Shown here piece by piece: positions 45,631 through 61,437 of a stretch of DNA of 64,000 nucleotides. Position 1 is the stretch's first letter; each line of letters opens with the position of its first letter. The notes below the pieces were generated by a model. The model made no database searches. It was not told the origin of the DNA and saw only the letters and a list, made by a program, of their open reading frames with translations. The position numbers and the translations under genes are program-made. Source of the DNA: Stenotrophomonas acidaminiphila (GTDB lineage Bacteria; Pseudomonadota; Gammaproteobacteria; Xanthomonadales; Xanthomonadaceae); assembly GCA_002951995.1 (NCBI GenBank), contig CP019797.1:2588501-2652500 (forward strand), written 5' to 3'.

Positions 45631-47463
45631 CTACTCCGGCAGCGCCAGGTTCTCCGCGGACAGCGGCTTGCCCATGCGCGGCGTGGTCTGGATCACCGCG
45701 TCGGCCGGCAGTGGCGTGCCCTTGTCCAGGCGCGCCTGCACGCGGTCCAGCGCAGCATGCACGTAGGGCAGCAGCGGCAGGTAGCGCGCGCCGTAGTCGG
45801 GCAGCCCGAGGAAGCCGTCGAAGTGCTGCACATGGCGTACCTGCCAGTAGTTCACCTCGCGCCCGGCGGCCTTGGCCGCGGCCACGTACGGCGCGCTGCT
45901 GAACGCCGGCGGGATCAGGCCGTCGTCGGTGCCGTGCACCACCATCACCGGCAGGCCGCTGCGCGGCAGCCCGGCGCGGGTGGCCTCGATCCCGGCCTGC
46001 ACCCGGCGGGCATCCTCGCCCTGCCCGTCCCACAGGGCGCGCAGGCACTTCAACCCGGGATAGGTCAGGTCCGGCAGCCGCACCTTGCTGTCGAGCAGGC
46101 CGACCCCGGCCCCCGGCGGGATGCCGCTGCCATCGGCGATCCACGCCGCGCGTTCGGCGGCGGTGGCCGCACGCGGCGAAAAATCCGGGTTCTGCGCGGC
46201 GAAGCTGAAGCCGCACGGATGCTCACCCACGCCATAGCGGCCATAGGCCGAGGCATAGCCGGCGGCGACCGCGCGCCACAGGTCGAAGCCGGTGGACAAC
46301 GCGCCGGCACGCAGCGCAGCGTCGGTCCAGCCCTTGCCGAGCATCAGTTCGTAAGCCGACCGGGCCTGCGCCGCCGGCGTGGCGCCGGCGATGACGCCTT
46401 CGGCCGCCAGCGTGGCGCAGCGCACCGTGGCAGCGGTCTGCAGCGCGGCGGTCAGCGGCGGCTGCGGCAGGTCGGTCATGTGCAGTTGCGCGCACGGCAT
46501 CAGCAGCGCCGCCTCGGTGGCGTAGTCGTACAGCGCGCGCACACCGGGGCCACTGGACAGCACGCTCGGTTCGCCGGCAACCACCGCGTCCAGCCAGTCG
46601 CCCTCCATCTCCGCCGCGCGCAGCACCGCGCCGCCGCCGTTGGAGATGCCCACCGCGATCACGCGGGTGTTGGCGAAGGTGAACGGCGCGGCCTGCGGGA
46701 AGGCCTGGTCCAACGCCAGCAGCGCGAACTCGGCCGCCTGCTTCACGTGACGGCCCCAGTCCGCTTCCGGGTTGTCCCGCGAATGGGCGTGCTTGAACGC
46801 CACGCCGGACGCATTGACCGGCGCATCCGGCACGAAGGCCAGGTCGGCGGCCTCGCCGAGCGCGCCGACCATGCCGTTGGCACGCACGCCCATCTGCGCA
46901 TCCAGGTCGAAATAGTCGCTGCCCGCGCCCTTGTCGGTGTAGACCACCGCGCAGCCGCGCGGCAGGCCCCAGGCCGCCGCCACCGACACCGCGCCGTAGA
47001 TGCCGCGCGAACCCGACGCCGGTGCCACCAGCACGCAGCGCCGGCCGCTGTCGAAGTTGTCCGGCACCTGCGCCAGCACGCGGTGCGGCTGGTGCGCGCC
47101 GGGCAGGCGCGCATAGGCCGAGTACTCGCGCCCCGGCACCGGGGCCAGGTCGCCGAACAGATCGCCATAGCCACCGCCCGGGGCCAGGTCGGCGATGCCG
47201 CGCCAACTGCCCCACAGCGCGCGCCGGCGCAGTTCCTCCACGGTCGGCGCATTGGCATCGGCGAATGCCGGCGGCGCCAGGCTGCGCAGCCCGGCCAGGC
47301 CGAGGCCGGCGGTCAACAGGTCGTCGTTGCCGCGATGCTCGCTGCGCAGTTCGTTGCTGAACATGGAAGACTCCACGGACTTGGACGCAGGGCCGCTGGC
47401 GCACGACGCCAGGCCGAATCCGACGATGAGGCCGCAGGCGGCGCGCAGGAGGGAAGTAGTCAT
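45631..47463 (-). CDS. D-(-)-3-hydroxybutyrate oligomer hydrolase
   Basis: 610 residues, a lipoprotein-like signal (LIVGFGLASCASG) followed by the 3HB-oligomer hydrolase family fold: LVAPASGSRGIYGAVSVAAA, VGISNGGGAVLRAAEM (nucleophile serine), GTDDGLIPPAF and HVQHFDGFLGLPDYGARY (histidine region). It cuts soluble oligomers of 3-hydroxybutyrate, from polyhydroxybutyrate breakdown, to monomers. The location would be outer membrane or periplasm. It is divergent from the 3HB dehydrogenase gene, with a shared regulatory region of 113 bp. Confidence 0.93.
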   Translation of the reverse strand: MTTSLLRAACGLIVGFGLASCASGPASKSVESSMFSNELRSEHRGNDDLLTAGLGLAGLRSLAPPAFADANAPTVEELRRRALWGSWRGIADLAPGGGYGDLFGDLAPVPGREYSAYARLPGAHQPHRVLAQVPDNFDSGRRCVLVAPASGSRGIYGAVSVAAAWGLPRGCAVVYTDKGAGSDYFDLDAQMGVRANGMVGALGEAADLAFVPDAPVNASGVAFKHAHSRDNPEADWGRHVKQAAEFALLALDQAFPQAAPFTFANTRVIAVGISNGGGAVLRAAEMEGDWLDAVVAGEPSVLSSGPGVRALYDYATEAALLMPCAQLHMTDLPQPPLTAALQTAATVRCATLAAEGVIAGATPAAQARSAYELMLGKGWTDAALRAGALSTGFDLWRAVAAGYASAYGRYGVGEHPCGFSFAAQNPDFSPRAATAAERAAWIADGSGIPPGAGVGLLDSKVRLPDLTYPGLKCLRALWDGQGEDARRVQAGIEATRAGLPRSGLPVMVVHGTDDGLIPPAFSSAPYVAAAKAAGREVNYWQVRHVQHFDGFLGLPDYGARYLPLLPYVHAALDRVQARLDKGTPLPADAVIQTTPRMGKPLSAENLALPE

Positions 47464-47496
47464 GTCCCCACACTAGCAGAGCGCCCCGCCCGGCCC

Positions 47497-47512
47497 ATCG
47501 TACTTTCGTACC
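47497..47512. promoter_or_regulatory. Motif ATCGTACTTTCGTACC in the 3HB divergent promoter
   Basis: The site lies between the oligomer hydrolase and 3HB dehydrogenase genes. Its sequence matches 13 of the first 15 positions of ATCGTCCGTTCGTACA at 61360-61375, in the divergent promoter of the receptor and GntP permease. It contains a GTAC-TTTC-GTAC direct/inverted element. A shared regulator is inferred; its identity is not known. Confidence 0.55.
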
Positions 47513-47576
47513 ACGCGGCGCTTACGTTCCGGCTGCTACGTTCTGCAGCCTTTCCCCACTGTTTGACGGAGTTCCC

Positions 47577-48374
47577 ATGGACCGCTTCCTGCAGGGTCGC
47601 ACCGCGCTGGTCACCGGCAGCACGTCGGGCATCGGCCTGGCCATCGCCCAGGCACTGTCCGCCGCCGGCGCGCGCGTGGCGATCAACGGCCTGGGCACGG
47701 CCGAACAGATCGACGCCGCGCTGGCCGGCGTCGCCGCGGCCGGCGGGCAGTCGCGCCATTTCGGCGCCGACCTGCGCAATCCGGCCGAGATCGAGGCGAT
47801 GATGGCCGCGGTGCAGGACTGGGGCGCGCTCGACGTGCTGGTCAACTGCGCCGGCATCCAGCATGCCGCGCCACTGGCCGAGCAGCCCGCCGGCAAGTGG
47901 GACGACATCATCGCCATCAACCTCAGTGCCGCCTTCCACACCATGCAGCAGGCGCTGCCGGGCATGGCCGCGCGCGGCTACGGCCGGGTGGTCAACATCG
48001 CCTCGGTGCACGGGCTGGTGGCATCGAAGAACAAGGCGCCCTACGTGGCCAGCAAATTCGGCATCGTCGGCCTGAGCAAGGTGGCCGCACTGGAATACGC
48101 CGCCGCCGGCAGCCGCGACAGCGGCGGGGTCACCGTCAACTGCGTGTGCCCGGGCTGGGTGGAAACGCCGCTGATCGAGCCGCAGATCCAGGCCCACCGC
48201 CACGGTGGCAGCCGCGACGACGGCGTGCGCGCCCTGCTCGAAGAGAAGCAGCCCAGCCTGCGCATGTCGCTGCCCGAGGACATCGCCGCGATGGTGGTGT
48301 GGCTGTGCCGCCGCGAAGCGCACAACCTCACCGGCGCGGCGCTGCCGATGGACGGTGCCTGGACCGCGCAGTAA
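47577..48374 (+). CDS. bdhA: 3-hydroxybutyrate dehydrogenase
   Basis: 265 residues, a classical short-chain dehydrogenase: NAD-binding TGSTSGIGLAIA near 13, NCAGIQHAAP, catalytic Tyr-Lys in YVASKFGIVGL, and the C-terminal IEPQIQAHRHG and LTGAALPMDGAWTAQ typical of 3HB dehydrogenases. It oxidises D-3-hydroxybutyrate to acetoacetate in the cytoplasm. It pairs with the divergent oligomer hydrolase. The start is ATG 47577. Confidence 0.95.
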   Translation: MDRFLQGRTALVTGSTSGIGLAIAQALSAAGARVAINGLGTAEQIDAALAGVAAAGGQSRHFGADLRNPAEIEAMMAAVQDWGALDVLVNCAGIQHAAPLAEQPAGKWDDIIAINLSAAFHTMQQALPGMAARGYGRVVNIASVHGLVASKNKAPYVASKFGIVGLSKVAALEYAAAGSRDSGGVTVNCVCPGWVETPLIEPQIQAHRHGGSRDDGVRALLEEKQPSLRMSLPEDIAAMVVWLCRREAHNLTGAALPMDGAWTAQ

Positions 48375-48494
48375 GCGCATGGCGGCGCAACCTGCCGGGC
48401 ACCGCGGCCGCGCCGGCGGCGCCGCTGCCGGCCGGGGTGCGCCACCGCCACACATTGGCCGACAATGCAGGCATCACCCGCCCCTTCCTGCCCC

Positions 48495-49160
48495 ATGCCC
48501 AGCCTGCTGATCGCCGACGACCACCCGCTGTTCCGCGCCGCGCTGCGCCAGGCCGCGGGCGAGGCGGTGGCCGACCTGCAGGTGCGCGAGGCCGAATCGC
48601 TCGAGGGCGTGCTGGCGGCGCTGGACGCCGCGCCCGATACCGACCTGATCCTGCTCGACCTGCACATGCCCGGCAACCACGGGCTGGCCGGGCTGGCGGC
48701 GATCCGCGCCCAGCACCCGGGGGTGGCGGTGATCGTGGTGTCGGCCAACGACGACCCGCGCGTGGTGCGACGCGCGCTCGACCACGGCGCCGCCGGCTAC
48801 CTGCCCAAGAGCTCGGGGCTGAACGAACTGCGCGAGGCGATCCGCAGCGTCATGGCCTGCGAGCAATGGCTGCCGGCGTCGCTGCGCGCGGCGGTGGCGC
48901 GGGCGCAGTCCTCCAGCCACGACAGCGAACTGGCCGCACGCCTGGCCAGCCTGTCGCCGCAGCAGTTCCGGGTACTGGCGCTGGTCGCCGAGGGCCTGCT
49001 CAACAAGCAGATCGCCGACCGCCTGGACGTGCAGGAACGCACGGTCAAGGCGCACCTGTCGGCGATCTTCGAGCGCCTGGGCGTGCGCAACCGCACCCAG
49101 GCCAGCGTGGTGCTGCGCGAACTGGAACTGAGCGACCCCAGCCGCCAGAGCGACCTGTAA
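48495..49160 (+). CDS. NarL/LuxR-type response regulator (CrbR-like)
   Basis: 221 residues. Receiver domain (LLIADDHPLFRAALRQ, phosphoacceptor in LILLDLHMPGNHG, conserved Ser in IVVSAND and Lys in YLPKSSG), and a C-terminal LuxR helix-turn-helix (LSPQQFRVLALVAEGLLNKQIADRLDVQERTVKAHLSAI). The start is ATG 48495 (MPSLLIADDH). No kinase is adjacent, but an SSS-type hybrid kinase at 55454-58795 is the likely partner. CrbR-type regulators control acetate use in other gammaproteobacteria. That it controls 3HB genes is inference. Confidence 0.93.
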   Translation: MPSLLIADDHPLFRAALRQAAGEAVADLQVREAESLEGVLAALDAAPDTDLILLDLHMPGNHGLAGLAAIRAQHPGVAVIVVSANDDPRVVRRALDHGAAGYLPKSSGLNELREAIRSVMACEQWLPASLRAAVARAQSSSHDSELAARLASLSPQQFRVLALVAEGLLNKQIADRLDVQERTVKAHLSAIFERLGVRNRTQASVVLRELELSDPSRQSDL

Positions 49161-49193
49161 CGCGCGGCGCGCAGGTACGCGCCGCGCCACCGG

Positions 49194-52100
49194 TCATGCC
49201 GCTGCCTGGCGCTGGCGCCGCCGCGACAGCAGCGCGTAGTACAGCAGCGGAATCACCACCAGGGTGAGCACGGTCGACACCAGGATGCCGAAGATCAGCG
49301 CGATCGCCAGACCGTTGAAGATCGGGTCGTCGAGGATGAAGAACGCACCGGCCATCGCCGCCAGCGCGGTGAGCGCGATCGGCTGCGCGCGCACCGCGCA
49401 GGCATCGATAACCGCCTGCTCCAGGGTCTGCCCGCGTTCGACCAGGTGGTTGATGAAATCCACCAGCAGGATCGAATTGCGCACGATGATGCCGGCCAGC
49501 GCGATCATGCCGATCATGCTGGTCGCGGTGAACTGCGCCCCGAGCAGCGCATGGCCCGGCATCACCCCGATCACGGTCAGCGGGATCGGCGCCATGATCA
49601 CCAGCGGCACCGCGTAGTTGCGGAAGTACGCCACCACCAGCAGGTAGATCAGCACCATGCCGGCGGCATAGGCGATGCCCATGTCGCGGAAGGTCTCGTA
49701 GGTGATCTGCCATTCGCCGTCCCACTTGATGCCGAAGCCGGCGCCGTCGGTCGGCTGGCGCACGAAGAACTGCGCCAGGCGCTGGCCGTCGATGGCGTGG
49801 TCGCCGACCTGGCCGACCAGGTCGAACATGCCGTACAGCGGGCTGTCGATGCTGCCGCTTTCGTCGCCCATCACGTACACCACCGGCAGCAGGTCCTTGT
49901 GCTGGATCGCGCCATCCCAGGGCGCGCGCCGCACCGTCACCAGCTCCGACAACGGCACCAGCTGGCCGTTGCCGCCGCCTACCCGCAGCGCCAGCACGCC
50001 GTCGAGCGTGGCCTGGCCGCTGGCCGGCAGCCGCAGCCGGATCGGGCGCGGGTACAGCGAGCCGCTGTCGATGACATGGCTGGCGTCGCTACCCGACAGC
50101 CCGGCGGCGATGGTCTGCACGATGTCCGCCTGCGACACGCCCAGCCGCGCCGCGCGCTCGCGGTCCACCACCAGCACCTCGCGCGCGGCATCGGCCTCGA
50201 CGCTGCTGTCGACGTCGACGATGCCGTCGGTGTCGAGGAAGCGCTGGGTCAGCGCGCGCCCGATCTGGCGCAGGCGCGCATGGTCCGGGCCGTACAGCTC
50301 GGCCACGATCGGCGACAGCACCGGCGGTCCCGGCGGCACTTCCACCACCTTCACCGAGGCACCATGGCGGCGTCCGATCCGCGCCACCTCCGGGCGCAGC
50401 GCCACGGCGATGTCGTGGCTCTTGCGGCTGCGCGCGTGGCGGTCGACCAGGTTGACCTGCAGGTCGCCGGTGTTGGCGCCCTCGCGCAGGTAGTACTGGC
50501 GCACCAGCCCGTTGAAATTGATCGGCGCGGCGGTGCCGGCGTAGCCCTGGTAGTGCAGCACCTCCGGGGTGCGGTCGAGCACGCCGGCCAGTTCGGCGAG
50601 CACCGCGTTGGTGGCCTCCAGGGTGCTGCCTTCGGGCATGTCCACCACCAGCTGCAGTTCGGACTTGTTGTCGAACGGCAGCATCTTCAGCACCACCAGG
50701 CGGAACACCGCCAGGCTCGCGGCCAGCGCCACCAGCACGGCCATGGCCAGGAACAGCCAGCGCCGCCGGCGCGCGGCGCCGTCACCGGCCAGGAACGGCG
50801 TCATCACCCGCACGAACACGTGGTGCAGGCGCGCGGCCATGCCGCCTTCGACATGGCCGTGGGCACCGGCCACCGCTGCGCCGGCATGGCGGCGCAGCAG
50901 CTTCAGCGACAGCCACGGCGTGACCACCAGCGCGATCAGCAGCGACAGCACCATGCCGACCGAGGCATTGATCGGGATCGGCCGCATGTACGGCCCCATC
51001 AGGCCGCTGACGAAGGCCATCGGCATCAGCGCGGCGATCACGGTGAAGGTCGCCAGGATGGTCGGCCCGCCCACTTCGTCGACCGCCGGCGGGATCGCCT
51101 CGCGCAGGGTCTTTCCGCCCTGCGCCATGTGCCGGTGGATGTTCTCCACCACCACGATGGCATCATCGACGAGGATGCCGATCGAGAAGATCAGCGCGAA
51201 CAGCGACACCCGGTTGAGGGTGAAACCCATGGCCCAGGACGCGAACAGCGTCACCGCCAGGGTCAGCACCACCGCCGAACCGATCACCAGCGCCTCGCGG
51301 CGGCCCAGCGCGAACAGCACCAGCAGCACCACCGAACCGGTCGCGAACACCAGCTTCTTGATCAGGGTCTGCGCCTTGTCGCTGGCGGTCGCGCCGTAGT
51401 CGCGGGTGACGGCCACTTCCACGCCCTCGGGAATGACCTGCCCGCGCAGCGCCTCGATCCGCTCCAGCACCGCGCCGGTGATGTCGGCCGCATTGCTGCC
51501 CGGCTGCTTGGTGATGGCCAGGGTCACCGCCGGCGCCACGCCGGTGCGCGGGCCGGCGCGCCCGGGCGGCGCGCCGTGCCAGACATAACGCGACGGCAGG
51601 TCGGTGGCATCGCTGACCGTGGCCACGTCGGCCAGCCGCACCGGCTGCCCGCCGTCCACCCCCAGCACCAGCCCGGCCACGTCGGCGCGGTCGGCCAGGA
51701 AGCGCCCGGCGCTGACCTGCACCACGCCGTCGCCACCGATGCGTTCGCCGGCCTGGCGCGCCAGGTTCGCCGCCTGCAGCGCCGCGGCCAGGTCGTTCAC
51801 CGCCAGGCCATGGGCGGCCAGGCGCGCCGGATCCAGCGTCACCATCATCGCCCGCTCGGGCGCGCCGATGGTGTAGACGTCACGGGTTCCGGGGATGTGC
51901 TTGAGCTCGGTTTCCAAGGTATGCGCGACCTGGGACAGTTCCAGCGCGCCACGCCCGCCGGCACCGCGGTCCGCCGCCGTCGGCGCGGGCGCATCGGCCC
52001 ACAGCGTCAGCGCCATCACCGGCACGTCGTCGATGCCGCGGGGCTTGATGATCGGCTGGCCGACGCCCACGTCCGGCGGCATCCAGTCCATGTTCGAGAA

Positions 52101-52469
52101 CACCTTGTCGTACAGGCGCACCAGCGCCGCCTGCCGCGGCACGCCGACGTCGAACTCCACGGTCAGCACCGCCAGCCCCGGGCGGCTGACCGAATAGGTG
52201 TGCTTGACCTGCTCGATCCCGGCCAGCCGGCGCTCCAGCGGATAGGCCACCAGCTGCTCCACCTGGCGCGCGTCGGCGCCGGGGAACGGCACGATGACGT
52301 TGGCCATGGTCACGTCGATCTGCGGCTCTTCCTCGCGCGGGGTGATCGCCACCGCGACCAGGCCCAGCAGCAACCCCAGCAACGCCAGGATCGGGGTCAG
52401 CGGGTTGTCCTGGAAAATGCGGGCCAGGCGGCCGGAAACACCCAGCCGCGGCGTATCGTGCGGCGCCAT
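49194..52469 (-). CDS. RND efflux pump inner-membrane transporter
   Basis: 1,091 residues, full length for an RND permease. It starts with a short cytoplasmic end (MAPHDTPRLGVSGRLARIFQ), and has the proton-relay FSIGILVDDAIVVVENIH in helix 4, repeated halves of about 12 helices, and two large periplasmic loops. The sequence is of the HAE-1/multidrug branch, without the Met-rich copper motifs. The adaptor gene is directly upstream in the transcript (1 bp away), and a DUF2892 gene leads the operon. No outer-membrane channel gene is present. Confidence 0.93.
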   Translation of the reverse strand: MAPHDTPRLGVSGRLARIFQDNPLTPILALLGLLLGLVAVAITPREEEPQIDVTMANVIVPFPGADARQVEQLVAYPLERRLAGIEQVKHTYSVSRPGLAVLTVEFDVGVPRQAALVRLYDKVFSNMDWMPPDVGVGQPIIKPRGIDDVPVMALTLWADAPAPTAADRGAGGRGALELSQVAHTLETELKHIPGTRDVYTIGAPERAMMVTLDPARLAAHGLAVNDLAAALQAANLARQAGERIGGDGVVQVSAGRFLADRADVAGLVLGVDGGQPVRLADVATVSDATDLPSRYVWHGAPPGRAGPRTGVAPAVTLAITKQPGSNAADITGAVLERIEALRGQVIPEGVEVAVTRDYGATASDKAQTLIKKLVFATGSVVLLVLFALGRREALVIGSAVVLTLAVTLFASWAMGFTLNRVSLFALIFSIGILVDDAIVVVENIHRHMAQGGKTLREAIPPAVDEVGGPTILATFTVIAALMPMAFVSGLMGPYMRPIPINASVGMVLSLLIALVVTPWLSLKLLRRHAGAAVAGAHGHVEGGMAARLHHVFVRVMTPFLAGDGAARRRRWLFLAMAVLVALAASLAVFRLVVLKMLPFDNKSELQLVVDMPEGSTLEATNAVLAELAGVLDRTPEVLHYQGYAGTAAPINFNGLVRQYYLREGANTGDLQVNLVDRHARSRKSHDIAVALRPEVARIGRRHGASVKVVEVPPGPPVLSPIVAELYGPDHARLRQIGRALTQRFLDTDGIVDVDSSVEADAAREVLVVDRERAARLGVSQADIVQTIAAGLSGSDASHVIDSGSLYPRPIRLRLPASGQATLDGVLALRVGGGNGQLVPLSELVTVRRAPWDGAIQHKDLLPVVYVMGDESGSIDSPLYGMFDLVGQVGDHAIDGQRLAQFFVRQPTDGAGFGIKWDGEWQITYETFRDMGIAYAAGMVLIYLLVVAYFRNYAVPLVIMAPIPLTVIGVMPGHALLGAQFTATSMIGMIALAGIIVRNSILLVDFINHLVERGQTLEQAVIDACAVRAQPIALTALAAMAGAFFILDDPIFNGLAIALIFGILVSTVLTLVVIPLLYYALLSRRRQRQAAA

Positions 52470-52470
52470 G

Positions 52471-53544
52471 TCAACGCTCCCCGCGGGCAGCGGCCAGCGC
52501 CTGCATCGCCGCCAGTGGATCGGCGGCGATGCGCTCGCCCGCCGCGAGCCCGGCGATTACCTCCACCTGGTCGCCGCGACGTTCGCCCAAGCGCAGCTGC
52601 CGCAGCGACGGCCGGCCATCGGCCAGCACGTAGACGGCATCGACCTCGCCCCGCCGCAGCAGCGCCGAGACCGGTATCTGCGGATACGCGCCGCCCTTCA
52701 CCGCCGGGAACACCACCCGCACCGTATTGCCGGGCACCGGCGCTGCCTCCAGCACCGGCAGCAGCACCCGCACCTTCACCGCATGGGTTGCGGCATCGGC
52801 GGCCGGGAATACCGTCACCTGCGCCGCGTCGACCTGGCGCCCGTCGTCCAGCTGCAGCCGGGCCACGGCATCGGCACGGATCGCATCGGCCTCGGACTGC
52901 GGCACGCTGACTTCCACGCGCAGCGCATCGGGCGCGAACACCGTCATCAGCGGCTGGCCCGGGTTCACGCTCTCGCCGGGCTCGACGTCGCGGCTGCTGA
53001 CAATGCCGGCATACGGTGCGCGCACCAGGGTGTAGCTGCCCTGCTGGCCTGCGCTGGCCAGTTGCGCGCGGGCCGCATCGCGCGCGGCCACCGCCGTGTC
53101 GCGCGCGGCGCGGGCACGGTCCAGCTGCGCCCGCGACACATACTGGCCCTGCGCCAGGTCGGCATGGCGGCGATAGTCGAGCTCGGCCTCGCGCGCGGCG
53201 GCCTCGGCGGCACGCACCTGCGCACGCGCCGCGTCCACCCCCGCCTGCTGTTCGACCGCGGTCAGCCGCAACAGCACCTGCCCGGCGGCCACCCGGTCAT
53301 CGACATCGGCCTCCACCTGCGCCACCCGCCCGCTGGTCTGCGCCGACAGCGTGGCCTGGCGCACGGCCTCCACTACGCCATCCCAGCCGCGCCCTTCGCT
53401 GGCGTCGGCGGCCCGCACTTCGATGCTGGACAGGCCCTCGACCCTGATCGGGGCAGGCTGAGGCTGGCCCCCGCCGCAGGCCGCCAAAGAGGCGGCCAGC
53501 AGCAGGGCCAGGGCATGGCGCGGGCGCAGGGTGTTCTGTTCCAC
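52471..53544 (-). CDS. RND efflux periplasmic adaptor lipoprotein
   Basis: 357 residues. A lipobox in LLAASLAACGGG, a beta-barrel/lipoyl arrangement (VEADVDDRVAAGQVLLRL, APYAGIVSSRDVEPGESVNPGQ) and a coiled-coil hairpin (ARAQVRAAEAAAREAELDYR...). It links the inner-membrane pump to an outer-membrane channel. The start is GTG 53544, with AAGG upstream. It follows the DUF2892 gene by 9 bp. Confidence 0.92.
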   Translation of the reverse strand: MEQNTLRPRHALALLLAASLAACGGGQPQPAPIRVEGLSSIEVRAADASEGRGWDGVVEAVRQATLSAQTSGRVAQVEADVDDRVAAGQVLLRLTAVEQQAGVDAARAQVRAAEAAAREAELDYRRHADLAQGQYVSRAQLDRARAARDTAVAARDAARAQLASAGQQGSYTLVRAPYAGIVSSRDVEPGESVNPGQPLMTVFAPDALRVEVSVPQSEADAIRADAVARLQLDDGRQVDAAQVTVFPAADAATHAVKVRVLLPVLEAAPVPGNTVRVVFPAVKGGAYPQIPVSALLRRGEVDAVYVLADGRPSLRQLRLGERRGDQVEVIAGLAAGERIAADPLAAMQALAAARGER

Positions 53545-53553
53545 GGCGCCGCC

Positions 53554-53757
53554 TTACTTGAACGCGCAGCCGCCGGGCACGCCCAGCCTGCGGAACACGA
53601 TGGCGGCCGGGCAGAAGCCGGTGACGCTGGCCTGCAGCAGGTTGGCGCCGACGAACACGGTGAGCCACAGCCACAGCGGCGATACGAAATGCGCGAGGGC
53701 GACGCTGGCGAGGACCATCACGCCGGCGAAGGCAAGGACGGCACGGTCGAGGTTCAT
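53554..53757 (-). CDS. DUF2892 small membrane protein
   Basis: 67 residues with two membrane helices (RAVLAFAGVMVLASVALAH; LWLWLTVFVGANLLQASVTG) and a conserved FCPAAIVFRRLGV, as in YgaP-like and other sulfur-linked DUF2892 proteins, which often accompany rhodaneses. The start is ATG 53757 (MNLDRAV). First gene of the leftward operon. Confidence 0.88.
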   Translation of the reverse strand: MNLDRAVLAFAGVMVLASVALAHFVSPLWLWLTVFVGANLLQASVTGFCPAAIVFRRLGVPGGCAFK

Positions 53758-53809
53758 ACGGATTCTCCTGGGCTGCACGGGACGGCACGGATGCCGGGTT
53801 GCGCTGAAC

Positions 53810-53830
53810 ATTAGCATTTACTAATATTAG
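53810..53830. promoter_or_regulatory. AT-rich inverted repeat, likely ArsR/BigR-type operator
   Basis: ATTAG-N6-CTAAT followed at once by ATTAG, so that CTAATATTAG is itself a palindrome, lies midway between the divergent DUF2892 and rhodanese genes. It is strikingly AT-rich for this DNA. BigR/SqrR-type repressors bind such AT-rich inverted repeats, and a regulator of this type is encoded 410 bp away. Confidence 0.75.
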
Positions 53831-53854
53831 CGTCAACTGATATAAGGAACCGCC

Positions 53855-54244
53855 ATGCCCGCCTCCATCAACGACCTGGTCGCCGCCGCCCGCGCCCGCA
53901 TCCGCGAGGTTTCCCCGCAGCAGGTCGCCGCCTGGCCAGCCGGCAGCGTCGCGATCATCGACGTGCGCGAGCCGGACGAGTACGCCGCCGGCCACCTGCC
54001 CGGCGCGGTCAACATCCCGCGCGGGGTGCTGGAGTTCCGCATCCACGCCCACCCGGCGCTGGCGTGTTCCACCAGCCAGGAACTGACCCGCCCCGACCGT
54101 CCACTGCTGCTGTACTGCCTGACCGGCGGCCGCTCGGCACTGGCCGCCGACAGCCTGCGCCAGCTCGGCTTCAGCGACGTGCGTTCGCTTGCCGGCGGCG
54201 TCAACGCATGGCGCAATGATGCGCTCCCGCTGGAACAGGAATGA
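53855..54244 (+). CDS. Rhodanese-like sulfurtransferase
   Basis: 129 residues, a single rhodanese domain: IIDVREPDEYAAGHLPGAVN and the persulfide cysteine Cys88 in LLLYCLTGGRSALAAD. It transfers sulfane sulfur in the cytoplasm. It is the first gene of the rightward unit and overlaps the ArsR gene by four bases. Confidence 0.93.
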   Translation: MPASINDLVAAARARIREVSPQQVAAWPAGSVAIIDVREPDEYAAGHLPGAVNIPRGVLEFRIHAHPALACSTSQELTRPDRPLLLYCLTGGRSALAADSLRQLGFSDVRSLAGGVNAWRNDALPLEQE

Positions 54245-54600
54245 TGATGGCCGATACCGCTTCCCGCCCGCCGTTCGACGTGACCGCGATGCGCGCGCAT
54301 GCCGGCGACGCCGCGCAGCTGCTCAAGGCGCTGGCCAACGAGAACCGGCTGCAGGTGCTGTGCCTGCTGGCCGAGGGCGAGCGTTCGGTGGGCGAGATCA
54401 ACGCCCTGCTGGACCTCAGCCAGTCGGCGCTGTCGCAGCACCTGGCGGTGCTGCGCGAGGAAGGCCTGGTGCTGACCCGGCGCGAGGCGCAGACCATCGT
54501 CTACGCGCTGGCCGATGGCCCGGCGGCGGCGGTGATGCACACCCTGCACGGCATCTACTGCGGCCGCCCCGCGACCCGCGGCAAGGCGGGCAAGCCATGA
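54241..54600 (+). CDS. BigR/SqrR-type ArsR-family persulfide-sensing repressor
   Basis: 119 residues. ArsR winged helix (LLKALANENRLQVLCLLAEG, LSQSALSQHLAVLREEGLVLTRR). It has just two cysteines, Cys41 and Cys107, at the positions of the reactive pair of SqrR (C41/C107) and BigR (C42/C108), and no metal-site motif. In those proteins persulfide links the cysteines and lifts repression. Its location between two rhodaneses supports this. The ATG at 54241 overlaps the rhodanese stop. Confidence 0.9.
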   Translation: MMMADTASRPPFDVTAMRAHAGDAAQLLKALANENRLQVLCLLAEGERSVGEINALLDLSQSALSQHLAVLREEGLVLTRREAQTIVYALADGPAAAVMHTLHGIYCGRPATRGKAGKP

Positions 54601-54967
54601 TCACGCTCCTGCGGCCCCTGTTCGGCCGTCGCGGCGGGCAGCTCACGGCGCATGAAGCGCGTGCGCGCATGCAGCGTGGCGCGGTGCTGGTGGACGTGCG
54701 CGAAGCGGCCGAGTTCGCCCGCGGCCACGCGCCCGGCGCACGCCTGCTGCCGCTGTCGCGCATCCGTGCGGGCGCGGCCGGCGCACTGGAGAGCCTGGAC
54801 CTGCCCGGCGCCCCCGCGAACTGCTGCTGATCTGCCACAGCGGCATGCGTTCGCGCATCGCCCAGGCGGCGTTGGCAGGGCACCCGCGCGTGCGCTGCGT
54901 CAACGTCGCCGGCGGCATGCAGGCCTGGGCCGCCGCGGGCCTGCCGACCACACCCCCGCAGGGCTGA
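54597..54967 (+). pseudogene. Second rhodanese-like gene, frameshifted
   Basis: Starts ATG 54597 (MITLLRPLFGRRGGQLTAHE, overlapping the ArsR stop) with VLVDVREAAEFARGHAPGAR. The frame then ends early at 54830, but the next frame gives RELLLICHSGMRSRIAQAA with the persulfide cysteine, ending at TGA 54967. One extra C in the CCCCC run at about 54809 would restore a 123-residue rhodanese. The interruption is more likely a missing base call than a real mutation. Confidence 0.85.
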
Positions 54968-55077
54968 CCACGCGTTACCGGCCCTTCCTGCACAGCGGCG
55001 CCCGGCGCCGATGCCTGTTCCCACCACGCCGGCAATCGCCGGGCACCGTTCCCCTTCCCTTCCCGAGGAGCAAATCC

Positions 55078-55434
55078 ATGAGCGCCACCCCGTCCTACAC
55101 CGAACTGACCCGCGACATCTCGCGCAACCTCACCCCGCTGCGCACCCACAACGCCGATGTGATGCAGGGCTTCGGCGCGCTCAGCAAGGCGGCAATGGCG
55201 GCCGGCGCGCTGGATGAGAAGACCAAGGAGCTGATCGCCATGGCGATCGGCGTGGCCAACCGCTGCGATGGCTGCCTCGGCTTCCATGCCAAGGCGCTGG
55301 TCCGGCTGGGCGCCACCCCGGAGGAGTTCCGCGAGATGCTCGGCGTGGCGGTCTACATGGGCGGCGGCCCGTCGTTGATGTACGCGGCCAACGCGCTGGC
55401 GGCGTTCGAGGAATTCAGCACCGCCCAGGGCTGA
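55078..55434 (+). CDS. AhpD-like carboxymuconolactone decarboxylase-family protein
   Basis: 118 residues, helical, with the CxxC active-site motif NRCDGCLGFHAKAL, which in AhpD-like proteins reduces peroxides. Other family features are MQGFGALSKAAMAAGALDEK and LGVAVYMGGGPSLMYAA. The start ATG 55078 follows GAGGAG. It lies just after the persulfide genes and faces the sensor kinase gene. Confidence 0.92.
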   Translation: MSATPSYTELTRDISRNLTPLRTHNADVMQGFGALSKAAMAAGALDEKTKELIAMAIGVANRCDGCLGFHAKALVRLGATPEEFREMLGVAVYMGGGPSLMYAANALAAFEEFSTAQG

Positions 55435-55453
55435 GCACGTCTCACCGCGCGCG

Positions 55454-58400
55454 CTATGGCCGGGCCAGCGCGCGCGCGGCCAGCAGCCGGTCCATGATCG
55501 ATTTCAGCGCGAGCGGCCGCACCGGCTTGTGCAGCAGGGTCAGGCCCTGCTCCAGCACCTCGCGGCGGGTGGCCAGGCTGTCGTCGGCGCTGAGGATCAG
55601 GGTCGGCCGGGTGCCGAAGCGCGCCCCCAGCCGCGCCTGCAGCGCGGTGCCGGTGTCGCCGTCGTCCAGGTTGTAGTCGAACAGCCACAGCGCCGCCGGC
55701 GCGGCCTGCATCGCCGCGACCGCAGCCGCCTCGGCCGACGCCTCGGCGACGTCGTAGCCCCAGCCGCGCAGCAGCGCCGCCAGCCCGGCCAGCGCCGCCG
55801 GGTCGTTGTCCACCACCAGCACCCGGACCGCACCGCGCGCCGCCGGCTCCGCCGGTCCCGGCGGCGGCGCCGCCGGCGTGGACACCGGCAACGCATCCAC
55901 CGCCACCGAGAACACCGTGCCCCGGCCGAGCGTGCTGCGCAGCCGCAGCGGCGCCTGCAGCAGGCCGGCGATGCGGTCGGCGATGGCCAGGCCCAGGCCC
56001 AGCCCCTGACCGCCGCTGTCCTCGCCACGGCGGAACTCCTCGAAGATGCGCCGCTGCTCGGTCGCGGCGATGCCCGGCCCGGTGTCGTGCACCTCGATGC
56101 GCAGCCGTCCGCCCTCGCGGCGCACGCCCAGCAGCACGCCGCCGCGCGCGGTATAGCGCACCGCATTGGCCAGGAAGTTCTGCAGTACCCGCCGCAGCAG
56201 CTGCGGGTCGCTGTTCACCCAGGCCCGGGTCGGCACGTAGCGGAAGCCCAGCCCACGCGCCGCCGCCAGGGCACGGAACTCGGAGGCCAGCGGGTCGAGC
56301 ACCTCGGCCAGCGGCATCCCGCGCGGCTGCGGCACCAGCCCGCCGGCCTCCAGCCGCGACATGTCGAACAGGCCGGTGAGCAGCTGCGTGGTCGAATCCA
56401 GAGCGCCGCGGATCTGCGCCACCGCCTGCCGCTGCGACGGCGCCTCGACCTGCTGCGCCAGGGTGTCGGTGAACAGGTGCGCGGCATGCAGCGGCTGCAG
56501 TAGGTCATGGCCGATGGCGGCCAGGAACCGGCTCTTGGCGTCGTTGGCGCGCTCGGCCTCGCGCTTGGCCGACTCCAGCAGCGCGGTGCGCTCGCCCACC
56601 CGCTGCTCCAAGGTCTCGTTGCTGCGCATCAGCTCCTGTTCGGTGCGGCGGAACTCGGTGACGTCGGTGAAGGTGGCCACGAAGCCGCCACCGGGCATCG
56701 GATTGCCGCGGATCTCGACGATGCGGCCGTCCGGGAACACCCGCTCGGTGAGGTGCGCGGTGCCGGCGCGCATGAACGCCAGGCGCCGGTCCACCGCACG
56801 CTCGTCGCTGCCACGCTGCGGCAGCGCCTGCAGCGCCCAGCGGGTCAGGTCGACGATCGGCCGGCCCACCTGCAGCAGTTCATCGGGAAAGCCGAACAAC
56901 TGCGCATACGGACGGTTCCAGGCCACCAGCCGCTGCTCGCGGTCGATCACGCTGATGCCCTGGCTCATGTTCTGCAAGGCCGCCTGCAATACCTGCTGGT
57001 TGAAGCGCAGGTCCAGCGAGGCCTCGCTGACGATGGCCGCGACCGTGGCCAGTTCGCCACTCTCGCGGCGCGCGGCGTCGAGCAGCAACCGCGCCGACGC
57101 CGCGCCGAGCACCGCGGACAATTCGCGCTCGATGCTGGCCTCGGTCGCCGCCGGCACCGGCCCCTGCCGCGGTGCGTCGGCCAGCAGCCGCTGCACCTTC
57201 TCCCACGGCAGGAAACGGCGGCCGGCGTCGCGCAGTGCGTCCGCGTCGAGGTTGCGCCGGGTGCGGTCGGGCGTGTCGCGGCGCCAGGCCATCACCAGCA
57301 GCGTCACCGCGGTGCCGACGAACAGGCTGGCGCCGACCGCGCGTCCCAGCGGGCTCCAGCCGGTCAGCCCGAACAGCGCCTCGGGCGCCAACCAGCGCCA
57401 GCCCAGCGGCCCGTGGGCAAGCCAGGCCGGCACCCTGCCGCTGCTCTCCAGCAGGGTCGGCAGCAGCAGCACCCAGGCCCAGGTGGCGAAACCGGCCAGC
57501 ACCCCGGCGATGGCCGCGCGCGGCGGCGTCTGCGGCCGCCAGATCGCGAACCCCAGCACCGGCACCAGCGTGGCCATCGCCGAGAACGAGATCGCACCGA
57601 TGTCGGCCAGTACGTTGCCGCCGCCGATCGAACGGCTGTAGCCCCAGGCCAGCAGCATGATCACGCAGATGCCGGCGCGCCGCAGCCACACCAGTTCGCG
57701 GCGGTGGTCGCCGCCGGCGCGGGCCCAGGTACTGCGCAGCAGGCCCGGCGCGAACCAGTGGTTGCCGATCATCAGGCTCAGGGTCAACGTGCTGACCACC
57801 ACCATGCCGGTGGCCGCGCTGAGCCCGCCGAGGAAGGCGAACAGCGCCACCCCGGTGTGCCCGGCGGAGAACGGCAGGGCCAGGGTGTACATGTCGCTGG
57901 GCACGCTGTCGCCCAGCAACGCGGTGCCGGCACGCGCCAGCGGCAGGATCGGCAGCGCGATCAGCAGCAGGTACAGCGGGAACAGCCAGCGCGAGGTGCG
58001 GATGTCGGCCGGGTCGCGGCACTCGACCACGCCGACGTGGAACTGGTGCGGCAGCAGGAACATCGCCAGCGCGCCGAGCAGCACCAGGGGCATGAAGCCG
58101 CCGGCCGGCGCATCCGCCACCGGCGCGGGCGGCGGCACCGCCACCGCATCCAGCCCGAACCAGACGAAGGCGCCCAGCGCCAGCATCGCGCCCAGCTTGA
58201 ACAGCGACTCGGCGGCCATCGCCAGCACCAGCCCGCGGTTGTGCTCGGACACGTCGGCGCGGCGCGCGCCGAACAGCATCGCGAACAGCGCCATCGCCAG
58301 CGCCACGTAAAGCGCACTGTCGCGCCAGGGCGCGGCGTCCACCGCATCGGCCGAGCGCAGGGTGAGCATGGCAAAGCTCATCGCCACCGCCTTGAGCTGC

Positions 58401-58795
58401 AGCGCGATGTAGGGAATGAGCCCGAGCGCGGCGATCAGCGTCACCGTCGCCGCCAGCCAGGCGTCGCGCCCCAGCCGCGCAGCGATCAGGTCGGCCAGCG
58501 AGGTCGCGTTGGTCTCGCGCGCCAGCCGCACCAGGCGCACCATCATGCCGATGCCCAGCGCGTAGAACAGGATCGCGCCGACGAAGGTCGGCGGCAGCGG
58601 CCAGCCATAGCGCGCGGCCTGGGTGACCGTGCCGTAGAACGTCCACGAGGTGCAGTGCACCGCCAGCGACAGCGCGTAGACATGGCGCCAGTGGCGCGCG
58701 AACACGGTGGGCCGGCGTTCGCCATAGAGCGCGACGCCGAACATCAGCACCAGCCAGGCCACTCCGGCCAATGCCACCGTCACCAGACTCAACAT
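55454..58795 (-). CDS. SSS-type hybrid sensor histidine kinase (CrbS-like)
   Basis: 1,113 residues. The N-terminal half is a sodium/solute symporter-like domain of about 13 helices (from MLSLVTVALAGVAWL), followed by a PAS domain (LVAWNRPYAQLFGFPDELLQ), a His-kinase dimerization helix with phospho-His at 763 (IGHDLLQPLHAA), HATPase (LANAVRYT, VHDTGPGIA, GLGLGLAIA) and a C-terminal receiver (VLVVDNDP, LFDYNLDDGDTG). The domain order is that of CrbS/CbrA-type kinases that sense carbon sources. The likely partner regulator is at 48495. Confidence 0.92.
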   Translation of the reverse strand: MLSLVTVALAGVAWLVLMFGVALYGERRPTVFARHWRHVYALSLAVHCTSWTFYGTVTQAARYGWPLPPTFVGAILFYALGIGMMVRLVRLARETNATSLADLIAARLGRDAWLAATVTLIAALGLIPYIALQLKAVAMSFAMLTLRSADAVDAAPWRDSALYVALAMALFAMLFGARRADVSEHNRGLVLAMAAESLFKLGAMLALGAFVWFGLDAVAVPPPAPVADAPAGGFMPLVLLGALAMFLLPHQFHVGVVECRDPADIRTSRWLFPLYLLLIALPILPLARAGTALLGDSVPSDMYTLALPFSAGHTGVALFAFLGGLSAATGMVVVSTLTLSLMIGNHWFAPGLLRSTWARAGGDHRRELVWLRRAGICVIMLLAWGYSRSIGGGNVLADIGAISFSAMATLVPVLGFAIWRPQTPPRAAIAGVLAGFATWAWVLLLPTLLESSGRVPAWLAHGPLGWRWLAPEALFGLTGWSPLGRAVGASLFVGTAVTLLVMAWRRDTPDRTRRNLDADALRDAGRRFLPWEKVQRLLADAPRQGPVPAATEASIERELSAVLGAASARLLLDAARRESGELATVAAIVSEASLDLRFNQQVLQAALQNMSQGISVIDREQRLVAWNRPYAQLFGFPDELLQVGRPIVDLTRWALQALPQRGSDERAVDRRLAFMRAGTAHLTERVFPDGRIVEIRGNPMPGGGFVATFTDVTEFRRTEQELMRSNETLEQRVGERTALLESAKREAERANDAKSRFLAAIGHDLLQPLHAAHLFTDTLAQQVEAPSQRQAVAQIRGALDSTTQLLTGLFDMSRLEAGGLVPQPRGMPLAEVLDPLASEFRALAAARGLGFRYVPTRAWVNSDPQLLRRVLQNFLANAVRYTARGGVLLGVRREGGRLRIEVHDTGPGIAATEQRRIFEEFRRGEDSGGQGLGLGLAIADRIAGLLQAPLRLRSTLGRGTVFSVAVDALPVSTPAAPPPGPAEPAARGAVRVLVVDNDPAALAGLAALLRGWGYDVAEASAEAAAVAAMQAAPAALWLFDYNLDDGDTGTALQARLGARFGTRPTLILSADDSLATRREVLEQGLTLLHKPVRPLALKSIMDRLLAARALARP

Positions 58796-58979
58796 GCGCA
58801 AGCAGTCCCCGTATGCATGGCGGGCAGGATACGGCGCACGCCCCGCGTGGCGGAACCGCGCGGACCCCGGCCCGGCGGCGGCACGGTGGCCGGCGCCCCT
58901 GCGCGCCGCGCGCCGGCCCCGTGCGCGGCATGCGGCCGCGCCCCGCCACCGCCACGCCGCGGCTGCGGGCCCGCGCACG

Positions 58980-59010
58980 AAAAAGCCCTCCCTGCGGGCG
59001 CAGGGAGGGC
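58980..59010 (-). terminator. Rho-independent terminator of the 3HB-linked receptor
   Basis: A perfect 11-bp stem GCCCTCCCTGC / GCAGGGAGGGC with a 4-base loop, followed on the minus strand by a run of five T, lies 26 bp past the receptor stop. Transcription running left from the receptor should stop here. Confidence 0.85.
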
Positions 59011-59036
59011 CGGGTTGCGGAACTGCGGCACGTGCC

Positions 59037-61274
59037 TCAGAAGTTGTAGCGCAGCGACATGTACCAGTTGCGCGGCAGGCCGTAGTAGGCGGTCTGGATG
59101 TTGCCCACGCTGGCGAACTCCTGGCCTTCGGTCTTGTATTCCTTGTCGGTCAGGTTGCGCACGCCGGCACGCACCTGCCAGGCCATCTGCGGCGAATCCC
59201 ACACGCCGTAGACGCCGAGCAGGGTGTAGGCGTCCTGGCTCAGCACCGCGCGGTTGTCCACGCTCAGCCAGGTCTTGCCGCGGTAGGAGACATCGCCACC
59301 GAAGGTCAGGTTGCCGTTGTCGCCCAGCGAAAACACGTGCTGCAGGGCCACGCGCGCGGTCCAGTCCGGCGAGAACGGCACGTGGTCATGGCTCACGTTC
59401 GGATCGAAGCCCGGGTACGAGGGATCCAGGCGGAAGTCCTCGAACTTGTCGTACTTGGCGTCCATCCAGCCGATCTGCGCGCTCAGCGTGGTGGCCTCGC
59501 CCAGCAGCGCACTGCCCTCCAGCTCGATGCCCTTGATGTTGAGCTTGGCCGCGTTGAGCACCGGGAAGGTGCCCACGTCCTGCGAGACGCGCGCCTGGAA
59601 GTCGCTGTAGTTGCTGTAGAACGCCGCCGCGCTGCCACGGAAGCGGCGGTCGGCCGAGCTGCCCTTCAGGCCGAGCTCGTAGGTCCACACGTATTCCGGA
59701 TCGAACTTGGCGTGCTGGGTGTCGTAGCGGGTGTTGGCGCGGCCGTTGAAGCCGCCGGACTTGAAGCCGCGGTTGGCCGACACGTAGCCCATCAGGTTGT
59801 CGCCGAACGCCTTCTGCAGGCTGATCGACGGGGTGACCGCGGTCCACGAGGCGTTGGCGGCAAAGGCCACGGTTTCGTTCAGGGCGGTGAACGGTGCGCC
59901 CCAGAAGGTGCTGGTGGAACGGGCGTAATCCTTCTTGTCCTTGGTCCAGCGCACGCCCGCGGCCACGGTCCAGCTCGGCACGAACTCCCAGTTGAGGTGG
60001 GCGAAGGCGGCGTTGGAGGTGGTGGTCAGGTCATCGTTGATGGTGCGCAGGAACGGCACCTTCGCCCCCAGGAACGAGAACAGGTCGTCGGCATAGGCCT
60101 CCTGGTAGGACGGGACGTTCTCCTTCATGTAGTACGCGCCGAAGGTGGCGTGCAGGTTGGAGCCGTTGTCGTAGTGCAGCTGGAATTCCTGGCTCTTCTG
60201 GTCCTGGTCCAGCGCGACCAGCACGTCGCCCAGCTCGTACTCGGAGGCGTCGATGTCGATGTACGACTTGGTCTTGAGCTTGCGGTAGGAGCTGATGCTC
60301 TTCAGCGTCCACTGCGCGTTGATGTCCCAGTCCATCGCCAGCGATGCACCGGAGTGCTTCAGGTACTGGCCCTCGCCGTTCTTGAACGAAGTCAGGGCGC
60401 GACGGTTCCACTCGCCGGTCTCACCGGGCTGCAGCACGATCACGCCGGCCGGCGCGAGGCTGGTCTGGCGCAGGTCGGCCATCGGCCGGCCCAGGGTCAG
60501 CGCGGCGTCCTGCTTGGTGGTGTCCAGCGACAGCGTGGCACGGAAGCTGTCGGTGGGGTTGAAGGCCATCTTGAAGCGCAGCGCCTCGGTGTCGTCGTCG
60601 TTGTAGCGCTTGCCGGTCTCGGCGTCCTTGACGTAACCGTCGTTGGTGATCTTGGCACCGGCGATGCTGGCGGCGATGGTGTCGCTGAGCTTGCCCGAAA
60701 CGTAGAAGCGGCCTTCCAGGCGGCCGTAGTCACCCGCGGTGACTTCCACCGCGCCGCCCTCGTTGTCGAACGGATTCTTGGTGGTCAGCTTGATCGCGCC
60801 GCCGGTGGAGTTCTTGCCATACAGCGTGCCCTGCGGGCCGCGCAGCACTTCCAGCTGCTGGATGTCGAACAGCGAGAACAGCGCGCCGTTGATGCGCGAG
60901 TAGTAGACGTCGTCGACGTACATGCCCACGCCCGGGTCGAACGTCTGCAGCGCGTCCGGCTGGCCGATGCCGCGGATGAACACGTTGACGCTGTTGGCCG
61001 AGCCGCGGCCCTGGGCGATGTTCATGTTCGGCACCGCGCCCTGCAGGCCTTCCACGGTGGAGGCCTGCAGGTCCTTGATCTGCTCCTCGCCGAACGCCGA
61101 CACCGCCACCGGCACGTCCTGGATGGACTCGGCGCGACGCCGCGCGGTCACGGTGACTTCGTCCAGCTGGGTGGCCTGCTGGCCGGCCGCCGGCTGCTGT
61201 TGCTGGGCCTGCACGAATGCGGCCGGGGCCAGCAGTGCACAGCCCACGGCCATGCTCAGATACTTGCGCTTCAT
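59037..61274 (-). CDS. TonB-dependent receptor, likely for 3HB-related or other carbon source
   Basis: 745 residues. Signal peptide (MKRKYLSMAVGCALLAPAAF), TonB-box-like LDEVTVTARRRAESIQDVPV, plug (VFIRGIGQPDALQTFDPGVG, MYVDDVYYSRINGAL, GPQGTLYGKNSTGGAI) and barrel ending NWYMSLRYNF. It belongs to the iron-complex/carbohydrate receptor class common in xanthomonads and sphingomonads; the ligand is not readable. The start at 61274 has GGAGGGAG upstream. It is divergent from the GntP permease with a shared motif, so a role in uptake of the permease's substrate or of its oligomers is inferred. Confidence 0.9.
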   Translation of the reverse strand: MKRKYLSMAVGCALLAPAAFVQAQQQQPAAGQQATQLDEVTVTARRRAESIQDVPVAVSAFGEEQIKDLQASTVEGLQGAVPNMNIAQGRGSANSVNVFIRGIGQPDALQTFDPGVGMYVDDVYYSRINGALFSLFDIQQLEVLRGPQGTLYGKNSTGGAIKLTTKNPFDNEGGAVEVTAGDYGRLEGRFYVSGKLSDTIAASIAGAKITNDGYVKDAETGKRYNDDDTEALRFKMAFNPTDSFRATLSLDTTKQDAALTLGRPMADLRQTSLAPAGVIVLQPGETGEWNRRALTSFKNGEGQYLKHSGASLAMDWDINAQWTLKSISSYRKLKTKSYIDIDASEYELGDVLVALDQDQKSQEFQLHYDNGSNLHATFGAYYMKENVPSYQEAYADDLFSFLGAKVPFLRTINDDLTTTSNAAFAHLNWEFVPSWTVAAGVRWTKDKKDYARSTSTFWGAPFTALNETVAFAANASWTAVTPSISLQKAFGDNLMGYVSANRGFKSGGFNGRANTRYDTQHAKFDPEYVWTYELGLKGSSADRRFRGSAAAFYSNYSDFQARVSQDVGTFPVLNAAKLNIKGIELEGSALLGEATTLSAQIGWMDAKYDKFEDFRLDPSYPGFDPNVSHDHVPFSPDWTARVALQHVFSLGDNGNLTFGGDVSYRGKTWLSVDNRAVLSQDAYTLLGVYGVWDSPQMAWQVRAGVRNLTDKEYKTEGQEFASVGNIQTAYYGLPRNWYMSLRYNF

Positions 61275-61359
61275 TGGTCTCCCTCCTCCCGGGTATGACA
61301 CGGCGGCACACGGATGCCGCCCACGTAGCGCACGTTAACGGGGCGTTAGGAGCCGGCGT

Positions 61360-61375
61360 ATCGTCCGTTCGTACA
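61360..61375. promoter_or_regulatory. Motif ATCGTCCGTTCGTACA in the receptor/permease divergent promoter
   Basis: The 16-bp site matches 13 of the first 15 positions of ATCGTACTTTCGTACC in the 3HB hydrolase/dehydrogenase region. It lies 86 bp before the receptor start and 63 bp before the permease start. Finding the same motif in two divergent promoters supports a common activator. Confidence 0.55.
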
Positions 61376-61437
61376 GTGGGCCGGGCCGGGCCGGCTCCCG
61401 ATACTCGCCGGCATCGTGTCTGGCCGGGGAGCCGTGG

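Follow-up and report, generated by a model that had tools for sequence, protein, structure and literature searches.

Two conserved inverted repeats as probable operators of a second CrbS/CrbR-type system for 3-hydroxybutyrate-oligomer use in Stenotrophomonas acidaminiphila

In a 64,000-nucleotide stretch of the Stenotrophomonas acidaminiphila genome (hereafter the window, which comprises bases 2,588,501-2,652,500 of a single-contig genome of 3,660,864 bases), two similar 15-mers lie in short divergent intergenic regions of a gene cluster that encodes a putative 3-hydroxybutyrate (3HB)-oligomer hydrolase, a 3HB dehydrogenase, a TonB-dependent receptor and a GntP-like permease. The cluster also encodes a hybrid kinase and a LuxR-type response regulator, which we call CrbS2 and CrbR2. 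We conclude that the two 15-mers are probably the paired operators of a self-contained CrbS2/CrbR2 regulon for the use of 3HB oligomers. What comparison of sequences could establish, and what carries this conclusion, is the conservation of the operators, their geometry relative to predicted promoters, the conservation of the cluster, the paralogy of the regulators, and the way in which regulator and operators have been lost together and have changed together.

The first 15-mer, ATCGTACTTTCGTAC, is located at 47497-47511 and the second, ATCGTCCGTTCGTAC, at 61360-61374, both on the forward strand. Only 2 of the 15 positions distinguish them, exactly as described in the earlier note, which had proposed from this pair that a shared motif links the two divergent promoters. 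A genome-wide search for random occurrence of the motif returned these two copies as the only matches to the strict pattern ATCGTNCNTTCGTAC with zero or one mismatch, along with 37 further matches that carry exactly two mismatches, which was the limit of the search, such that more divergent sites were not sought. For each of the 37, both sides of the putative dyad were inspected for a -10-like element at a distance of 29-33 bases; none has one, and they were all dismissed as further sites of this genome for lack of such a properly spaced element. Because ATCGTNCNTTCGTAC was derived from the two copies themselves, their exact matches to it are weak proof. When both intergenic regions were subjected to 400 dinucleotide-preserving shuffles, 15 of the resulting pairs contained a common 15-mer with at least 13 of 15 identities, and the best 15-mer of the real pair (14/15) is a different GC-rich stretch rather than the motif. 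Taken without relatives, the bare pair of sites is marginal evidence, and we accept the motif as real because of its conservation and not because of pairwise identity.

That conservation was evident throughout the family. In 30/30 of the best-scoring hydrolase loci, our own genome included, the upstream region has a copy with no more than one mismatch, and in 20/30 of the best-scoring permease loci it has one with no more than two. We then used ATCGTMCNTTSGKAC, a pattern widened after inspecting the relatives' sites, which yielded 143 matches in 198 family genomes versus 2 for the reversed pattern. Assignment to promoters relied on 142 typed hydrolase rows (138 genomes) plus four genomes added by hand (G073, G135, G154 and G187), and on 43 permease rows; it placed 95 matches before the hydrolase and 32 before the permease, with 127/127 in the same orientation. 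Sixteen matches remained unassigned, two of which were placed at clusters (one in G161, where the hydrolase is cut by the contig end, and one in G100, where the hydrolase is partly matched), and the other 14, fetched separately, lie elsewhere: 12 within open frames that were called mechanically with a minimum length of 150 amino acids, some of which will be spurious in GC-rich DNA, and 2 outside such frames (L220 and L221). In total, 129 of the 143 matches sit at the two divergent promoters of the cluster, which supports the proposal that these promoters are linked through a conserved regulatory site, the shared motif. A chance likeness of two GC-rich promoters, for which the outcome of the shuffles might be cited, is extremely improbable in light of this family-wide conservation at fixed places, and we rejected it on the basis of the 143 versus 2 reversed matches and the single orientation of the 127 matches at the two promoters.

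Variants such as TCGTACTTATGTACGA reveal the site as an inverted repeat, TCGTAC-N4-GTACGA, with a 4-base spacer. Operator 1 (47498-47513, TCGTAC-TTTC-GTACCA) is positioned between the hydrolase gene and the dehydrogenase/crbR2 genes, and operator 2 (61361-61376, TCGTCC-GTTC-GTACAG) between the receptor and permease genes; both are kept in relatives. We examined promoter geometry in 44 of 46 hydrolase rows, from which the identical L204 and L205 had been removed, and in 30 of 34 permease rows, with L098, L099, L146 and L204 outside the core pattern. A TANNNT element starting 30-32 bases from the dyad was present on the hydrolase side in 41/44 loci, on the dehydrogenase/crbR2 side in 33/44 and on the receptor side in 27/30, where shuffled controls gave means of 2.2, 2.3 and 0.9 and maxima of 7, 7 and 4, respectively. 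The corresponding predicted -10 elements of the window are TAGTGT (within TGCTAGTGT) for the hydrolase promoter at 47470-47475 on the reverse strand, TACGTT for the dehydrogenase/crbR2 promoter at 47537-47542 on the forward strand, and TAACGT for the receptor promoter at 61332-61337 on the reverse strand. In three directions, the predicted start therefore lies about 42 bases downstream of the site centre, and a looser, -10-like element (GATACT, 61400-61405, forward strand) occupies the fourth, that of the permease promoter. A centre near -42 is typical of class II activators, which are positioned next to the -35 region. Because the -10 elements on both sides lie 30-32 bases from the dyad, the operator centre would be near -42 for both divergent genes, which suggests that one site can activate both. 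On the hydrolase side, the ATG follows the -10 element by 6 bases in the window (47461-47475) and by exactly 6 in 33/41 loci, which predicts a conserved leaderless hydrolase mRNA. The conserved hydrolase -10 element is mostly of an extended form (TGCTANNNT).

The earlier note had named the LuxR-type gene as the regulator. To this we add the kinase gene, the relationship of both to CrbS/CrbR, and the inverted repeat with its -42 activator geometry. CrbR2 (48495-49160, forward strand, with a frame open from 48465) is a predicted response regulator and candidate activator in which a receiver and a LuxR/GerE domain were matched. CrbS2 (55454-58978, reverse strand, with a start probably near 58800) is a predicted hybrid kinase in which an SLC5 transporter-like sensor is fused to PAS_7, HisKA, HATPase_c and Response_reg domains. 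The sensor was recognized from the match of residues 64-511 to the SLC5-STAC structure chain of CbrA (PDB 10ED, E 7.3e-48), and Pfam assigned the first 626 residues to no family. By their paralogy, these genes are a second CrbS/CrbR pair; the same genome has another at acs (G000:C1:3506000-3520000, L142), with CrbR1 just downstream of acs and CrbS1 a few kb further. The window proteins are 46% (CrbR) and 45% (CrbS) identical to that pair.

This paralogy raises the possibility that the sites do belong to CrbR2 and that its signal is acetate or a general short-chain acid, with the cluster as an offshoot of the acetate response. Known CrbR controls acs and actP in acetate use (PMC5715377, PMC8402216), and the nearest NCBIfam model of CrbR2 is that of ErdR (NF041830), although its 217.3 bits fall below the cut-off of 390, as do the 241.6 bits of the acs-linked CrbR. 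However, the acs-linked pair is kept separately in the same genome, and the two CrbR types form the two sides of one fully supported branch in a tree of 60 sequences. Furthermore, 28/30 of the family's acs promoters have an inverted repeat of another kind (TTCGCCATTGGTCGAA-like / CTATTCGCCATTGGTCGAA), and the two acs loci that lack it (L167 and L168) are the two whose examined stretch contains no CrbR1 gene. The acs motif and many cluster sites have the centre C[A/T]TTGGT in common and differ in their outer arms, and the recognition helices of the two regulator types likewise differ (VSEAT.KAH.TAILRKLG versus.[QS]ERTVKAH..AIFE[RK]LG in most). For these reasons, we consider an acetate signal unlikely. 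The reading of the operators as canonical ACTU-type sites, to be bound by the acs-linked CrbR, was likewise rejected, since nowhere does the window match the acs-type motif derived from family acs promoters with fewer than three mismatches.

We also investigated how the cluster is conserved, using 20 clusters from 19 genera that were selected for having the hydrolase and permease at most 20 kb apart. CrbR2, CrbS2 and a TonB receptor were present in 20/20 of them as well. The interval between operator 1 and crbR2 holds the window-type dehydrogenase in 5 clusters, another short-chain dehydrogenase/reductase (SDR, approximately 37-42% identical) in 7 and neither in 8. In 7 of those 8, crbR2 is the first gene after the site, for which autoregulation is the simplest reading. 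Of the 198 family genomes, 142 have a hydrolase match and 140 a permease match. In a class sample, hydrolase relatives were found in 6/274 genomes, 3 of which belong to the family, and the stretches fetched from the 3 non-family genomes contained no CrbR2, CrbS2 or motif. The receptor slot across L055-L104 is filled by two unlike TonB types, which are approximately 62-81% or 30-39% identical to the window's receptor, so that the ligand of the receptor is not readable from orthology.

Regulator and operators were next compared across the 198 genomes, with the CrbR2 type defined as at least 54% identical. CrbR2 and the hydrolase occurred together in 134 genomes, the hydrolase only in 8, CrbR2 only in 6 and neither in 50, counts that are uncorrected for kinship. 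Five near-complete genomes contain the hydrolase in the absence of both CrbR2 and the permease, and their best upstream site scores were -4.3, -3.6, -3.6, 6.5 and 7.5 bits, relative to a background maximum of 6.0 bits in 3000 draws; the two highest scores correspond to decayed operator remnants at the expected place (L225 and L227). Scores of 18.8-28.7 bits were obtained for 12/12 further loci that have CrbR2 near the hydrolase and had been picked as lacking an exact pattern match. In four clusters (the second copy of G029, G071, G124 and G179), a variant regulator on a long branch, CrbR2b, has a changed recognition helix (VQLRTVKAHMTRIM[EG]RLG), and both operators of 4/4 of these clusters read G[T/G]ACCTAGGT[A/C]C. 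The -10-like element is still found 30-32 bases from the dyad in 16/16 directions of the CrbR2b clusters (12 TANNNT and 4 GANACT). Based on co-occurrence, parallel loss and the joint change of helix and operators, we take CrbR2 as the probable reader of the sites, and the gene at 48495, as originally suggested, is the best candidate to bind them. Further LuxR-type regulators are encoded in the genome, any of which might be imagined to bind the sites instead. Binding by a regulator other than CrbR2 is nevertheless very unlikely, given that CrbR2 and the operators were lost and changed in parallel and that, among the window proteins tested, to which the systematic comparison was confined, the other regulator (ArsR type) has a counterpart in 1/20 clusters versus 20/20 for CrbR2.

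The enzymes of the cluster point to the substrate. The predicted 3HB-oligomer hydrolase (45631-47463, reverse strand) matched PF10605 with 436.4 bits (cut-off 27), and its closest named relatives are those of Stenotrophomonas (S. acidaminiphila, 97%; S. nitritireducens, 93%). Its N-terminus resembles that of a lipoprotein and ends in a lipobox-like LASC, judged by eye, which suggests that the enzyme probably works outside the cytoplasm. The predicted 3HB dehydrogenase (47577-48374, forward strand), an SDR, scored 274.7 bits with NF009093 (cut-off 258) and 277.3 bits with TIGR01963, under the cut-off of 307.05. The SDR of L093, the only one profiled of the seven that replace it in relatives, reached 358.6 bits with TIGR01963, which identifies it as a 3HB dehydrogenase. 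In the TonB-dependent receptor (59037-61301, reverse strand, with the start probably at an ATG near 61274), both plug and barrel domains were matched (PF07715, 65.5 bits; PF00593, 134.9 bits). The GntP-like permease gene (61438-62843, forward strand), which the earlier note had counted among the parts of the system, is present and intact in relatives, whereas its frame is broken near 62255 in the window, where it differs in length by one base from a same-genus copy; the strain may have lost the intact frame recently, or the break may stem from an error in sequencing. The portion from 61438 to the frameshift region scored 20.2 bits with PF02447, below the cut-off of 22.5, and several relatives of the permease bear the NCBI label "GntP family permease". 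A scoA/pcaI-type CoA-transferase subunit is encoded elsewhere in the genome, outside the cluster.

The variant clusters add to this picture. In L146, a short-chain-length polyhydroxyalkanoate depolymerase lies beside the permease (NF050058, 279.8 bits, cut-off 150), and this profile was run on L146 alone among the four CrbR2b clusters. Relatives of the depolymerase stand across operator 2 in L143-L145, divergent from the receptor; the stretch ends within them, and they were recognised by similarity only. An acyl-CoA ligase is encoded near crbR2b in 4/4 variant clusters and is divergent from crbR2b in L143-L145. The presence of genes that resemble those for polyhydroxybutyrate (PHB) depolymerase supports PHB or 3HB as the substrate, and the gene set (the PF10605 hydrolase, the dehydrogenase and, in variants, the depolymerase) fits the use of 3HB oligomers that had been predicted from the window. 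Two observations on these clusters may be recorded separately. The genome G029 has two diverged cluster copies approximately 30 kb apart, the second of which (L146) has CrbR2b, changed operators, the PHB depolymerase and the acyl-CoA ligase. L143, L144 and L145, from the same genus, have no hydrolase match, yet keep CrbR2b, CrbS2b and the receptor.

It could be argued that the family names, which are based on profile matches, are misleading and that the substrate is a different ester or a different hydroxy acid. At an E value of 0.001, no protein of solved structure is related in sequence to the hydrolase, and the intact permease of a relative matched no Pfam or NCBIfam model; the receptor occurs in two types. 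The strong match of the hydrolase to its 3HB-oligomer family, the PHB depolymerase in variant clusters, and the occurrence at the same place of two 3HB-dehydrogenase-like enzymes that are only about 40% alike argue otherwise, and we regard a different substrate as quite improbable.

Several observations nonetheless weigh against a conserved CrbS2/CrbR2 regulon for 3HB oligomers. With respect to the operators, 10/30 permease promoters have no copy within two mismatches of the strict pattern, and the core GTACCTTCG is kept in most of these. On the permease side, 0/30 loci have TANNNT at 30-32 bases; GANACT occurs at the same distance in 23/30, a pattern that was picked after viewing the alignment and counted without a shuffle control. 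The co-occurrence counts include shared ancestry, and the site scores for genomes with the hydrolase only leave out two of the eight (G007 and G073). In G120, which is 76% complete, a site is present and CrbR2 was not found, and in G088 and G114 CrbR2 is located on other contigs and the sites are weak (7.5 and 2.7 bits). In some genomes (e.g., G040, G048, G150 and G156), the cluster is split into a hydrolase half and a permease half that are distant from each other or lie on separate contigs, and in 17/20 clusters the receptor is only 30-34% identical to that of the window. In addition to the broken permease frame of this strain, its genome revealed no PF10503 depolymerase in a search that did not extend to other depolymerase families; this absence agrees with a scavenger of products released by others.

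Between crbR2 and crbS2, the interval 49194-55434 encodes a resistance-nodulation-division (RND) pump and membrane-fusion protein, a rhodanese together with the ArsR-type regulator, and a carboxymuconolactone-decarboxylase-like protein. Counterparts were present in only 1/20 clusters for the RND pump, 1/20 for the ArsR gene, and 0/20 for the rhodanese and carboxymuconolactone-decarboxylase genes, which places these genes outside the conserved set.

We propose the following model for the regulon, whose carbon source would be 3HB oligomers, fragments of PHB that dissolve in water. The membrane kinase CrbS2, whose sensor domain resembles a transporter, would sense a metabolite of the pathway and phosphorylate CrbR2, a dimer of which would bind TCGTAC-N4-GTACGA directly. 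From its position about 42 bases upstream of both predicted starts, a single bound site could switch on both divergent genes through a class II mechanism. Operator 1 would thereby activate the oligomer hydrolase in one direction and, in the other, the 3HB dehydrogenase along with crbR2, which would form a positive loop, and operator 2 would activate the receptor and the permease. As suggested by its gene neighbourhood only, the receptor may pass 3HB oligomers through the outer membrane, after which the hydrolase would cut them outside the cytoplasm, the permease would import 3HB, and the dehydrogenase would convert it to acetoacetate.

On balance, we favour the view that this system represents an undescribed SLC5-sensor branch for 3HB or its oligomers, with its own operator code and with both arms of two divergent promoters served from one site near -42, of which one same-genus branch jointly switched its regulator and both operators, beside a PHB depolymerase and an acyl-CoA ligase. 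Among open-licence papers, we found nothing that joins a CrbS/R-type system to 3HB. The word "hydroxybutyrate" occurs zero times in the main text of PMC5715377 and PMC8402216, and PMC8871633 and PMC8694187 contain both it and CrbR, CrbS or MxtR, but in unrelated passages. If correct, the model would add a new carbon-source class to the SLC5-type transporter-kinases, few of which have so far been characterised, and would provide a named regulator for the uptake of fragments of PHB, which is both a natural storage polymer and a bioplastic. The joint change of helix and two operators would furthermore offer a natural experiment on how duplicated regulators gain separate DNA codes.

Parts of this arrangement have precedents. 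In Alteromonas macleodii, MASE_06600 encodes a TonB transporter that adjoins a PHB depolymerase, for which PHB is the predicted substrate and which was enriched under carbon limitation (PMC7190382). TonB-dependent scavenging of this kind, which the earlier note regarded as apparently undescribed, therefore has a predicted counterpart; unlike here, no regulator or operator is described for MASE_06600 in the portion of that report available (PMC7190382). Dedicated control of (R)-3-hydroxybutyrate catabolism, as proposed here, is known from Pseudomonas aeruginosa, where it is exerted by HbcR (PA2005) with RpoN (PMC8694187). HbcR is an enhancer-binding protein that acts with sigma-54, whereas the candidate in the window is a CrbR paralogue. 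HbcR is encoded beside bdhA and a permease gene in P. aeruginosa. The SLC5-STAC part of the transceptor CbrA is matched by CrbS2, but CbrA recognises histidine and has CbrB as its partner (PMC13022988). RpuS/RpuR of Sinorhizobium fredii is likewise an SLC5/STAC kinase-regulator pair, dedicated to a single carbon source and the matching transporter, and has a DNA motif of its own; it is alphaproteobacterial and serves pyruvate and MctP, and the accessible text mentions no TonB receptor or polymer-derived substrate, unlike the cluster described here (PMC9100948). Closest of all is CrbS/CrbR (MxtR/ErdR), which similarly combines an SLC5-type hybrid kinase with a LuxR-type response regulator and whose activator site, also an inverted repeat though an imperfect one, immediately precedes the promoter (PMC5715377, PMC8402216). 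The ACTU of P. fluorescens acs is reported at -52 to -36, to which the operator centre in the window is close (PMC5715377). The window pair differs from CrbS/CrbR in the outer arms of its operators, in its recognition helix and in its targets, which are 3HB genes, and it is the other pair that lies beside acs. Without the acs link and the ACTU-type motif, two features that define the acetate system, the system would nevertheless work like CrbS/R.

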